Part shown: one piece after another, positions 11,230 through 50,370 of the stretch
How the letters are laid out: every line of letters starts with the position of its first letter
Position numbering within the stretch: the first letter of the stretch is position 1
From: Oceaniovalibus guishaninsula JLT2003
GTDB lineage: Bacteria; Pseudomonadota; Alphaproteobacteria; Rhodobacterales; Rhodobacteraceae
Assembly (NCBI RefSeq): GCF_000299575.1
Contig: NZ_AMGO01000052.1
Coordinates: 1-64,000 of the forward strand
Direction of reading: 5' to 3'
DNA length: 64,000 bases
Program-made: the position numbers and the translations under genes
The notes under the pieces: model-generated
The model's database searches: none
What the model was told of the DNA's origin: nothing
What the model saw: the letters and a program-made list of their open reading frames with translations, nothing else

Positions 11230-12003
11230 TCAGAGCGCGGTCCATCCGCCATCGACGCTGATCGTCGTTCCGGTGATCTGATCGGCGGCGGACGAACACA
11301 GGAAAACCGTCGTCCCGCCCATCTGCTCGACGGTCGCGAATTGCTTGCTGGGCTGCCGCTTCAGCATGACGTTGGCGATCACGTCCTCGCGGTTCATCCC
11401 GTATTCCTTCATGGTATCAGGGATTTGCGCCTCGACCAGCGGCGTCAGCACATAGCCGGGACAGATGGCGTTGCAGGTGATCGGCTCTTCCGCCGTCTCC
11501 AGCGCCACCGTCTTCGACAGCCCGACGATTCCATGCTTGGCGGCAATATACGCGCTTTTATAAGGACTTGCGGTCAACCCATGCGCCGAAGCGATGTTGA
11601 CCACCCGCCCCCAACCCGCCTTGCGCATCATCGGCAGCGCCGACGCGATGGTATGGAAGGCCGATGTCAGGTTGATCGCGATGATCGCGTCCCACTTCTC
11701 GACCGGGAACTCGTCCACAGGTGCAACGTGTTGGATTCCCGCGTTATTCACCAGGATGTCGCAGACGCCCGCCTGCGCGATCAGTGCCCGGCACTCGTCG
11801 CCCTTTGACATGTCCGCCCGAATATACCGCGCCCCGACCCCGAACTCCTCCGCCACCGACGCGGCCAGCGCATGGTCGTCATCGGAATCGGTGAACGAAT
11901 TCAGGACGATATCGGCCCCCGCGCGGGCAAGCTCACGCGCGATGCCCAACCCGATTCCCGAGGTGGATCCGGTGATGACGGCGGTCTTGTTCTTCAGCTG
12001 CAT
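11230..12003 (-). CDS. bdhA: 3-Hydroxybutyrate dehydrogenase (short-chain dehydrogenase)
   Basis: Oxidises D-3-hydroxybutyrate to acetoacetate with NAD+, the exit step of polyhydroxybutyrate use. 257 residues. The Rossmann motif TGSTSGIGLGIA is at residues 10-21, then NNAGIQHV, the catalytic Ser-Tyr-Lys set (NIASAHGL, YKSAYIAAKHG) and the BDH-typical tail NAICPGYVLTPLVEAQIPD. Start 12003 follows GAGGAA; the frame is open further upstream but the extra part is not SDR-like. A palindromic promoter and an intrinsic terminator lie 120-245 nt upstream on the same strand. Confidence 0.94.
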   Translation of the reverse strand: MQLKNKTAVITGSTSGIGLGIARELARAGADIVLNSFTDSDDDHALAASVAEEFGVGARYIRADMSKGDECRALIAQAGVCDILVNNAGIQHVAPVDEFPVEKWDAIIAINLTSAFHTIASALPMMRKAGWGRVVNIASAHGLTASPYKSAYIAAKHGIVGLSKTVALETAEEPITCNAICPGYVLTPLVEAQIPDTMKEYGMNREDVIANVMLKRQPSKQFATVEQMGGTTVFLCSSAADQITGTTISVDGGWTAL

Positions 12004-12123: not shown

Positions 12124-12151
12124 TAAAAAAACGCCCGCGCAAGGCGGGCGT
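12124..12151 (-). terminator. Rho-independent terminator
   Basis: Perfect 8-bp stem ACGCCCGC/GCGGGCGT with a 5-nt loop, followed on the minus strand by seven T. No protein gene ends nearby on that strand, so it must terminate the candidate RNA that starts near 12199. Confidence 0.85.
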
Positions 12152-12199
12152 CCAGTTATTGAGGCAGGTTCCATACAGGCACGAAACCTATCGAGCAGT
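12124..12199 (-). ncRNA. Candidate small RNA or attenuated leader upstream of bdhA
   Basis: A good sigma70-type promoter on the minus strand (TTGAAA at 12228-12233, 16-nt spacer, TATATA at 12206-12211) would start RNA near 12199. About 76 nt later there is a strong intrinsic terminator. The predicted RNA has an upstream stem (AGGUU pairing with AACCU) and then the terminator hairpin. No convincing gene is encoded. It may be a stand-alone sRNA or the early-terminated leader of bdhA, which begins 120 nt further on. No known RNA family was recognised. Confidence 0.5.
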
Positions 12200-12205
12200 G
12201 GTTCA

Positions 12206-12271
12206 TATATACGCGACGTCCTGCTGATTTCAAATGGTAAATTTGAAACGCGGCTTCCAGCCGGGTAAGGT
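12206..12271. promoter_or_regulatory. Divergent promoters sharing one palindromic operator
   Basis: The perfect inverted repeat TTTCAAAT-N5-ATTTGAAA (12228-12248) contains one TTGAAA -35 box on each strand. The minus one pairs with TATATA at 12206-12211 (16-nt spacer). The plus one pairs with the weaker TAAGGT at 12266-12271 (17-nt spacer), 47 nt before the YejA-like start. A regulator on the palindrome would control both directions. Confidence 0.55.
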
Positions 12272-12317: not shown

Positions 12318-14126
12318 ATGGGTCTCGTCCAAAATACACGCATAGCGTGTATCGTCACGGCATTTCTTCTGGCATCCATCGCCAGTGCCCAGCCTCGGCA
12401 TGGAATCGCGATGTATGGCGATCCGGCCCTGCCGCCCGACTTCACCGCCCTGCCCTATGCCAACCCGGACGCACCGAAGGGCGGGCGGATCGTGCAGGGC
12501 GAAGTCGGCAGCTTCGACAGCCTCAACCCTTTCATCCTGAAGGGAAATCCGCCGTGGCAGATGCAATTTCTGGTCTACGAATCGCTCATGGGCCGCAACT
12601 ACGACGAGCCTTTCACGCTCTATGGCCTGTTGGCTGAATCGGTCGAGACCGCGCCCGACCGGTCCTGGGTGGAATTCACCTTACGTCCCGAAGCGACGTT
12701 TTCCGACGGAACGCCCGTGACCGTTGACGATGTATTATGGTCGTTCGAAACGCTTGGCACGGAAGGCCATCCGCGCTTTCACGGCGCCTGGCAGAAAGTC
12801 GCCAGTGCCGAACGGACCGGCGAGCGGACGGTTCGATTCACGTTCAACGAACGCGACGATGAATTGCCGCTGATCATGGGATTGCGTCCCATTCTGAAAA
12901 AGGCGCAATGGGACGGCAAGGATTTTTCGGCGTCGGGGCTGAACACGGTTCCTGTCGGATCGGGGCCCTACGTCATTGGAGATTACGAGGCGGGCCGGTA
13001 TGTCACGCTGCTGCGCGACAAGGATTATTGGGGTGCCGACCTGCCTCTGCGGCGCGGGACCGGCAATCTCGATGAAGTGCGGATGGAATTCTTCGGCGAC
13101 GGAACCGTGATGTTCGAGGCATTCAAGGGCGGCCTTCTGAACACCATGCGCGAGACCAACGCAAAGAAATGGGCCACGCAATACGACTTTCCCGCAATTC
13201 GTTCGGGCGATGTCGTCAAGTCGGAAATTCACCATCAACGCCCTTCGGGCATTACCGGGCTGGTCATGAATACCCGACGCGCACCGTTCGACGACTGGCG
13301 CGTTCGGGAGGCGATGATTCTTGCTTTCAACTTCGAGTTTATCAACCAGACCCTCAACGGCGGCAACGCGCCGCGGATCACCAGCTATTTCTCCAATTCC
13401 GACCTTGGGATGCTGGACGGTGCGGCAACGGGACGCACCGCCGATTTGCTGGCGCCCTTCGCCGACACTTTGTTGCCCGGCACGCTGGACGGGTATGAGA
13501 TGCCGGTCAGCGACGGCACGGAACGCAATCGTCGCAACACTGCCCGCGCGCTCGACCTGTTGGCAGAGGCCGGCTGGCAGGTCGGCCCCGGCGGCACGCT
13601 GCGCAATGCGGACGGCGAGCCGTTCGAATTTACCATCCTTCTCAACCAGGGCGACAACGAGTCGCAGCAGGTGGTCGATCTTTATGCTGCGGCGCTGAAA
13701 CGGCTGGGGATCGCGCCGCGCATCCTGAGCGTGGACAGCGCGCAATATGTTCAACGCACGCAGGAATTCGACTTCGACATGACGTGGTACACCCGCGCGC
13801 TGTCGCTCAGCCCCGGCAACGAACAGAAGCTCTATTGGGGCGAGGGGTCGGCCGACACGCCCGGATCGCGCAACTGGATGGGTGCCGACGATCCCGCCAT
13901 CGACGCGATGATCGACGCGATGCTGACATCGGAGACGCCGCAGGATTTCGTCGCCGCGACGCGGGCGCTTGACAGGCTGCTGACGGCCGGACGCTATGTC
14001 ATCCCCATCTGGCACAACCCGGTATCCTGGATCGCGCACGATGCACGCCTGCATTACCCGCCCGACACGTCGATCTACGGTGACTGGATCGGATTCCAGC
14101 CCGATGTCTGGTGGTGGCAGGACTGA
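12318..14126 (+). CDS. Extracellular solute-binding protein, family 5 (YejA-like)
   Basis: Periplasmic binding protein for oligopeptides or microcin-like peptides. 602 residues, close to E. coli YejA (604). A signal peptide (hydrophobic LVQNTRIACIVTAFLLASIASA) is cut before QPRHGIAMYG. The SBP_bac_5 body follows, with LRPEATFSDGTPVTVDDVLWSF near residue 120 and VPVGSGPYVIGDYE near 215. No permease or ATPase genes follow, so the partner transporter must be elsewhere. Start chosen as the ATG right before the signal peptide. Codon choice is slightly less GC-rich than its neighbours. Confidence 0.9.
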   Translation: MGLVQNTRIACIVTAFLLASIASAQPRHGIAMYGDPALPPDFTALPYANPDAPKGGRIVQGEVGSFDSLNPFILKGNPPWQMQFLVYESLMGRNYDEPFTLYGLLAESVETAPDRSWVEFTLRPEATFSDGTPVTVDDVLWSFETLGTEGHPRFHGAWQKVASAERTGERTVRFTFNERDDELPLIMGLRPILKKAQWDGKDFSASGLNTVPVGSGPYVIGDYEAGRYVTLLRDKDYWGADLPLRRGTGNLDEVRMEFFGDGTVMFEAFKGGLLNTMRETNAKKWATQYDFPAIRSGDVVKSEIHHQRPSGITGLVMNTRRAPFDDWRVREAMILAFNFEFINQTLNGGNAPRITSYFSNSDLGMLDGAATGRTADLLAPFADTLLPGTLDGYEMPVSDGTERNRRNTARALDLLAEAGWQVGPGGTLRNADGEPFEFTILLNQGDNESQQVVDLYAAALKRLGIAPRILSVDSAQYVQRTQEFDFDMTWYTRALSLSPGNEQKLYWGEGSADTPGSRNWMGADDPAIDAMIDAMLTSETPQDFVAATRALDRLLTAGRYVIPIWHNPVSWIAHDARLHYPPDTSIYGDWIGFQPDVWWWQD

Positions 14127-50293: not shown

Positions 50294-50370
50294 TGGCGGA
50301 CCCAAGAGGATTCGAACCTCTGGCCTCTGCCTTCGGAGGGCAGCGCTCTATCCAGCTGAGCTATGGGTCC
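50294..50370 (-). tRNA. tRNA-Arg (anticodon CCG)
   Basis: 77-nt cloverleaf with encoded CCA. Acceptor arm GGACCCA/TGGGTCC, D arm GCTC/GAGC, anticodon arm CTGCC/GGCAG with loop CTCCGAA (anticodon complement at 50334-50336), a 5-nt variable loop, and T arm AGAGG-TTCGAAT-CCTCT. It reads CGG arginine codons, common in this GC-rich genome. It lies between sufS and potH. Confidence 0.97.

Follow-up and report, generated by a model that had tools for sequence, protein, structure and literature searches.

Is a 76-nucleotide (nt) segment with its own promoter and terminator the gene of a small RNA (sRNA), or is it the leader of the gene that follows it? The question is raised by positions 12124 to 12199 (minus strand) in a stretch of 64,000 nt from Oceaniovalibus guishaninsula JLT2003 (positions 1 to 64,000 of contig NZ_AMGO01000052.1, referred to here as the window). 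An earlier note, made from the letters of the window, offered both answers: a short stable RNA or a conditionally terminated leader of bdhA. We consider it likely that the segment encodes an orphan, trans-acting, and probably Hfq-dependent sRNA of about 72 to 76 nt, the loop of which pairs with the leader of the division operon dcw (the mraZ leader), and with the leader-derived sRNA UpsM, near a site of cleavage by RNase E.

The transcription unit

Read on the minus strand, TTGAAA (12233-12228) is followed by a 16-nt spacer, TATATA (12211-12206), 6 nt, and then ACTGCTCGATAGG, in which the A at 12199 is the likely +1. The segment closes with a GC-rich 8-bp stem (12151-12131) and seven T (12131-12125). 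Every one of these promoter and terminator elements had been listed in the earlier note, and all were recovered on rereading. The ends that it proposed, 12199 and 12124, agree to within one base with blastn matches to relatives, which typically run from 12200 (or slightly further up, into the promoter) to 12125. The features of the unit are as follows.

12124-12199, minus strand: sRNA gene, 76 nt, predicted +1 at 12199 (blastn matches, an alignment of copies, and a model match of 98.3 bits)
12206-12211, minus strand: -10 element TATATA, family consensus TATAA at -12 to -8 (read from the sequence; 140 distinct upstream regions)
12228-12233, minus strand: -35 element TTGAAA, family consensus CTTGGA, with its TTG one base further upstream (sequence and family conservation)
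12239-12248, minus strand: upstream promoter element TTTCAAATTT, family consensus TCAAACTTTT at -48 to -39 (conservation)
12192-12198, minus strand: sRNA nt 2 to 8, CUGCUCG, the invariant 5' end, complementary to CGAGCAG of dcw leaders
12166-12189, minus strand: stem-loop 1, consensus AGGUUUC / GAAACCU (predicted fold and covariation analysis)
12166-12182, minus strand: putative pairing segment, sRNA nt 18 to 34, complementary to the mraZ (dcw) leader and UpsM
12125-12151, minus strand: intrinsic terminator, 8-bp stem and seven T (terminator scan and fold; six of eight stem pairs changed on both sides)

The predicted fold consists of two stem-loops and is more stable than 198 of 200 shuffled sequences (z = -3.3). 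In a scan of positions 10 to 15 kb, the sRNA terminator had the longest stem listed (10 pairs), and the remaining four rows, of which one is the same site, had 5 or 6 pairs. The sRNA promoter was absent from the list produced by the sigma70 rule of that scan, which placed one promoter-like site elsewhere. Both kinds of site occurred at about chance level (5 terminator-like sites versus 3.5 expected; 1 promoter-like site elsewhere versus 1.2 expected). Such motifs, which chance can yield, are little proof in themselves; it is conservation that settles the reality of the gene.

Conservation in the Rhodobacteraceae

When a 141-bp query was run with blastn against 198 genomes of the Rhodobacteraceae, a large family of sea and soil sampled at nearly one genome per genus, 192 had a match, and 189 of these had a single one; the end points given above come from the roughly 150 matches listed. 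Among family genomes of at least 90% completeness and at most 5% contamination, 172 of 174 have a match. A second sample of the family, which overlaps the first, gave 292 of 292, and sampling within genera gave 100 of 101 genomes for one genus and 7 of 7 for another. An exact 35-nt core (with two N) occurs in at least 118 contigs of a named genome collection, and the genera among the matches listed include Ruegeria, Sulfitobacter, Paracoccus, Jannaschia, Roseovarius, and Neomegalonema.

For the class as a whole, a covariance model was run with strict filters against 241 genomes. The four family genomes listed scored 98 to 106 bits, and no genuine copy was found in the other 237, in a search whose strict filters mean that weak homologues could be missed and whose listing leaves out the families of 210 genomes without a match. 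Seven of these 237 genomes had weak matches (26.7 to 32.7 bits), which were rejected on reading: none has the loop GCCTGTATG or CTCGATAGG, and one has the 8-mer CTGCTCGA.

The constraint is concentrated at the 5' end. None of the 106 copies retrieved through BLAST or from coordinates (29 + 9 + 2 + 7 + 1 + 58) departs from the consensus within its first 40 nt; some genomes are counted twice in this set, the BLAST copies in it are the better-scoring ones, and genomes with weaker blastn matches are outside the count. The same holds for 116 of the 118 pattern-selected loci listed, where the pattern itself allows variation only at nt 18 and 29. The two exceptions are a Planktomarina locus (L080), which has G at nt 18 as the window does, and a copy that ends at the edge of the fetched stretch (L097). 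An alignment of 43 copies shows no variation in 38 of its first 40 columns. The terminator stem, on the other hand, does vary, with compensation: six of its eight pairs change on both sides, and pairing is never lost (100% of cells are paired). Upstream, 140 distinct regions selected with ACTGC at +1 share a consensus of TCAAACTTTT at -48 to -39, CTTGGA at -36, TATAA at -12, and A at +1. That forty bases have stayed nearly unchanged in almost all of the Rhodobacteraceae genera sampled suggests a core function.

As judged from these alignments, the segment is a conserved stand-alone transcription unit with a predicted promoter and an intrinsic terminator, which is what is expected of a trans-acting base-pairing sRNA. 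The earlier note had named the lack of conservation of promoter, stem, and T run in relatives as grounds for abandoning its proposal, and all three are conserved. The first part of that proposal, a short stable RNA served by a promoter and a terminator of its own, is therefore strongly supported by conservation, and the second, a conditionally terminated bdhA leader, is not, for reasons given below.

The window copy departs from the consensus at sRNA nt 18 and 29. It is the only copy seen with an altered nt 29 (window position 12171), and among the copies compared it shares G at nt 18 (window position 12182) with L080 only. Opposite its own leader, G18 gains a G-C pair and G29 gives a wobble. 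The TCAAACTTTT element, which lies immediately upstream of the -35 element and is kept in the 140 upstream regions, may be an UP element or a regulator site.

Complementarity with the mraZ leader

In the window's genome, a stretch of the mraZ leader, CTTCATACAGGCAC, is complementary to the sRNA loop and arm; it lies 197 nt ahead of the mraZ GTG. TTCATACAGGCA occurs just once in the whole genome, namely in this leader. The motif ATACAGG is present in 15 of 17 mraZ loci from the family versus 0 of 10 from the rest of the class; in its place, the two family loci without it carry CGTACAGG (G066) and CCTACAGG (G360).

A larger set of leaders was drawn from the 186 of 198 genomes searched that have an MraZ match, of which the 96 easiest to cut were taken, Rhodobacter sphaeroides 2.4.1 (G051) included. 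At least 9 of the 11 bases of TTCATACAGGC are found in 94 of the 96 leaders, with 79 exact, and the site is missing in two (G182 and G109). Some 200 nt ahead of mraZ, the site stands out as a conserved island, with core columns of 1.8 to 2.0 bits among flanking columns that mostly hold 0.1 to 0.6 bits. When the 19-nt complement is scored, 80 of 96 leader rows have at least 15 matching bases, and no reversed or shuffled leader has more than 14; in this count, the R. sphaeroides leader stretch ended before its site (11 matches), and the 11-nt count used the right stretch. The 9-nt core is perfect in 85 of 94 leaders, and eight of the nine substitutions preserve pairing via G-U. Predicted duplex energies, with accessibility costs excluded, are -33 kcal/mol for the window's own pair, -30 kcal/mol for R. 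sphaeroides, and -34 kcal/mol for the consensus. The loop and descending arm of the sRNA are thus predicted to pair with the mraZ leader, and this complementarity to an RNA encoded elsewhere, conserved in 94 of 96 leaders, is a second property expected of a trans-acting sRNA.

In R. sphaeroides, the predicted site can be placed on a mapped transcript. The sRNA copy lies at 1,443,996-1,444,071 on the minus strand, with a predicted 5' end at the A of ACTGCTCG near 1,444,071. UpsM starts near 694,636, and the mraZ GTG lies 207 nt after the start of CATACAGGC. The pairing site (694,689-694,706) falls within UpsM, 14 nt upstream of the mapped RNase E cut. That cut, at 694,720, yields a 130-nt UpsM fragment (PMC6238624).

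A second element, CGAGCAG, is complementary to sRNA nt 2 to 8 and follows the pairing site, after about 48 nt, in 81 of 94 leaders. It was found upstream in 1 of 94 leaders and likewise in 1 of 94 reversed strings; by our own estimate, the chance odds of such a 7-nt match are a few per cent. In R. sphaeroides, a manual count places it at 694,742-694,748, beyond the RNase E cut. The two leader elements are collinear with the sRNA, and so both could pair together, with the cut site looped out. CGAGCAG is, however, part of a conserved hairpin loop that extends beyond it (ATCCCCCCAG, found in 68 of 94 leaders) and is perhaps kept for another reason, and the second contact is therefore no more than suggestive. 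The C-run half of this loop (GCGAGCAGACATCCCCCCAGG, in the 694,742 region of R. sphaeroides and in 68 to 81 of 94 leaders) has no known partner and may bind another RNA or a protein.

A further copy of CATACAGGC, at 624,067 in R. sphaeroides, precedes the ATG of a cold-shock-like gene by 124 nt. This gene is a possible second target of the sRNA, or the match may be due to chance.

A proposed circuit for dcw leader processing

From the conserved promoter and terminator, the distribution, the near-invariant 5' 40 nt, and the complementarity, all of which are properties of the sequence, we infer transcription at this locus, dependence on Hfq, pairing in the cell, and a regulatory effect and its sign. 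The exposed loop GCCUGUAUG would serve as the seed, and pairing would then invade the stem to give a duplex of 12 to 18 bp with the dcw leader and with UpsM. Where CGAGCAG is present, a second short duplex with sRNA nt 2 to 8 would leave the region of the RNase E cut looped out between the two duplexes. The sRNA could in this way set how the leader is cut and hence the amounts of dcw mRNA and UpsM. The outcome might be repression of dcw or, alternatively, titration of the sRNA by abundant UpsM. The sRNA probably helps to control growth, and, with the whole of its 5' 40 nt under constraint, it is likely to have further targets.

Several observations weigh against this proposal. The window's own sRNA-leader pair has one C-A mismatch, and its leader lacks CGAGCAG. 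Two relatives of the same genus have altered sites: pairing is kept through G-U in CGTACAGG (G066) and is broken in CCTACAGG (G360). The sRNA side varies too little for covariation with the leader to be demonstrated, and the eight core transitions that keep pairing are weak evidence alone, because six of the nine core positions allow such a change. The leader site is just partly unpaired in predicted leader folds. Two genomes of 74% and 80% completeness (G033 and G157) have the leader site and no sRNA match. Conversely, no MraZ match was found in 12 of 198 genomes, and 10 of these 12 keep the sRNA, which may therefore have targets besides dcw.

Retention in these ten genomes also bears on the main rival to our reading of direction, in which UpsM is the regulator: abundant UpsM would sponge the sRNA from other targets until it is cut in stress or in stationary phase. 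Such a role would accord as well with an invariant sRNA stretch that exceeds what dcw pairing needs. The leader of unterminated dcw mRNA, however, carries the same site, and we regard this alternative as rather unlikely. A more ambitious version of our own proposal, which we advance tentatively and with less than even confidence, is that the sRNA is a core regulator of the division operon, that the dcw leader is clamped at two elements flanking the cut, that UpsM acts as a built-in sponge, and that StsR, another sRNA that binds UpsM, is a later, R. sphaeroides-specific addition.

In either form, regulation of the dcw leader would link the window RNA to a question posed for UpsM. Weber et al. 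(2016) noted that the stable fold of UpsM can refold only with the help of a further partner, be it RNA, protein, or ligand (PMC5089854). StsR answered this question for R. sphaeroides under stress, and the present site offers a partner for the whole family. If the proposal is true, a family sRNA conserved almost letter for letter regulates the division operon, and StsR joined an older circuit later. The pairing site also makes division control in the ecologically important Rhodobacteraceae directly testable by compensatory mutations.

UpsM (RSs0682) itself belongs to the same proposed circuit and bears the complementary site. It is nevertheless distinct from the window RNA: UpsM is the presumed partner and arises by termination in the mraZ leader, whereas the window RNA has a gene of its own at another locus.

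Alternative identities of the RNA

StsR (formerly RSs0827) of R. sphaeroides is a 72-nt, RpoHI/HII-dependent sRNA that binds UpsM (PMC8307010, PMC11354728, PMC8625941), and it promotes UpsM cleavage by RNase E. An orthologue of StsR in the window would explain the shared partner (UpsM and the dcw leader) and the comparable length (StsR, 72 nt; PMC8307010), and the sRNA promoter fits the RpoHI/HII rule TTG / TAT (PMC10673084). That promoter is equally compatible with sigma70, and chromosome position speaks against orthology. The RSs numbers follow position in the published coordinates (RSs0682, 694.6 kb; RSs1543, 1,632,642; RSs1624, 1,724,505; RSs2461, 2,598,224). Interpolation places RSs0827 at about 853 kb and gives the present sRNA, at 1.444 Mb, a number of about 1370. 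Motif repeats at 691.7 to 692.4 kb are presumably those of CcsR (RSs0680a-d).

Another terminator-bearing candidate lies at 858,083 in R. sphaeroides, and its TTCACTGTCCC is an exact complement of the 5' part of UpsM. It also has CCCATGT, which we take to be RpoH-like, and this locus is likely to be the StsR gene. The UpsM site for TTCACTGTCCC is full-length in 1 of 94 leaders, that of R. sphaeroides itself, which is consistent with the description by Weber et al. of the UpsM 5' region R1 as hardly conserved (PMC5089854). An identification of the window RNA as StsR, which we had adopted on the UpsM match, was withdrawn in view of the positional RSs numbers and of this second UpsM-complementary candidate at 858 kb, and we now regard orthology as improbable. 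A search for ChrR (TIGR02451) found none in R. sphaeroides or in the window's genome. Pairing with rpoE mRNA directly behind the start codon is a further trait of StsR. StsR most likely maps to a locus other than that of the sRNA, and the dcw leader would thus seem to have the sRNA as a second partner, one that is family-wide. The two RNAs would be alike as short orphan sRNAs with their own promoters that pair with UpsM and the dcw 5' untranslated region (a pairing that is predicted for the present sRNA). They differ, most likely, in locus and sequence and also in reach: the UpsM site of the StsR candidate is complete in R. sphaeroides only, whereas the present sRNA is family-wide and is predicted to pair at a conserved site adjoining the RNase E cut.

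The genomic neighborhood bears on the other half of the earlier note, attenuation of bdhA. In the window, bdhA occupies 11230-12003 on the minus strand, with its ATG at 12003, 121 nt past 12124, and the divergent neighbor, on the plus strand at 12318-14126, codes for an ATP-binding cassette (ABC) transporter substrate-binding protein. Neighbors were counted in those of the 118 named pattern-selected loci listed that have enough sequence. Of 91 such loci, 76 have bdhA on the same strand further downstream, at 49 to 344 nt in 69 of them, with the terminator in between, as a conditionally terminated leader would require. Yet bdhA is 980 to 2,218 nt away in the other 7 of the 76, the divergent transporter gene is the tighter neighbor (80 of 84 loci), and the sRNA is retained in 15 of 91 loci without a bdhA match in the fetched stretch. 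Because of these 15 loci, we regard the sRNA as untied from bdhA; a linkage obligatory for an attenuator was not found. Moreover, the predicted fold shows no alternative structure that disrupts the terminator, and the invariant part of the RNA is its 5' 40 nt rather than a bdhA-linked element. Attenuation of bdhA is accordingly very improbable.

Still harder to credit is a reading of the RNA as a small mRNA that encodes the micro-peptide MKPASIT. The frame AUG AAA CCU GCC UCA AUA ACU can be read to a stop in copies that end in ACTTAA or ACTTGA (window positions 12151-12174, minus strand), but the stop is lost in the window and in other copies (ACTGGA, ACTCAA, and ACTGAA). Up to nt 40, third codon positions are no less invariant than the others, and later indels break the frame.

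Known RNA families and prior detection

The sRNA matched no Rfam family at the gathering score, in agreement with the earlier note, which had recognized no known RNA family. Its closest full-length match, Hrs13 (RF02631), reached 23 bits versus a gathering score of 52, and the unrelated families Leu_leader and Trp_leader match about equally; all such near-misses (9 to 23 bits) were rejected as generic hairpin matches.

The description of the RNA as a new candidate calls for caution: homologues in R. sphaeroides and Paracoccus denitrificans have probably been detected before, without a function. The R. sphaeroides copy (1,443,996-1,444,071) probably corresponds, by chromosome position, to an sRNA numbered about RSs1370. 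We presume that RSs1368 may be its name; a literature search on RSs1368 and RSs1386 found neither name and no function on record. For P. denitrificans, one paper describes "Intergenic 134" as an 84-nt RNA, confirmed by reverse transcription-PCR, that is conserved in Rhodobacteraceae and has a context in common with an R. sphaeroides sRNA (PMC5107571). By our reading of that paper's numbering, this candidate homologue lies on chromosome 2, and Paracoccus relatives carry the sRNA on a second replicon. Homology to Actinobacteria and Chloroflexus is also reported for it (PMC5107571). "Intergenic 60," which had first been picked by read numbers, was dropped: our reading of the paper's numbering puts it on chromosome 1, and so "Intergenic 134" fits better.

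No assigned role for the sRNA was found in a search of open papers, which did not extend to most subscription literature; an earlier detection may be recorded there, for instance in the first survey of R. sphaeroides sRNAs. A search for the sRNA letters or probe-like complements found no relevant paper. In the available text of the literature on UpsM and Rhodobacter, StsR is the sole sRNA reported to bind UpsM. Searches on mraZ, small RNA, and Rhodobacteraceae returned only the UpsM paper as relevant, and one on conserved Rhodobacteraceae sRNAs together with Ruegeria pomeroyi returned only the P. denitrificans paper.

Further observations

One Paracoccus record that was read has the same two kinds of neighbor annotated and nothing annotated at the sRNA. 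A secondary replicon of 1.46 to 2.24 Mb carries the sRNA in P. versutus, P. ferrooxidans, and P. pantotrophus.

Not far upstream of the dcw leader, R. sphaeroides has 14 GGGAGGAGG repeats (691,716-692,429), and the window's genome has similar GGGAGGAG repeats in the corresponding vicinity of its dcw leader; both resemble what we take to be the CcsR motif (RSs0680a-d). The dcw promoter region of R. sphaeroides, upstream of UpsM, also contains TCCCAT/GCCCAT repeats, which presumably resemble MraZ-binding boxes. Within the window, the sole Rfam match at the gathering score is a tRNA-Arg (CCG) at 50294-50370 on the minus strand.
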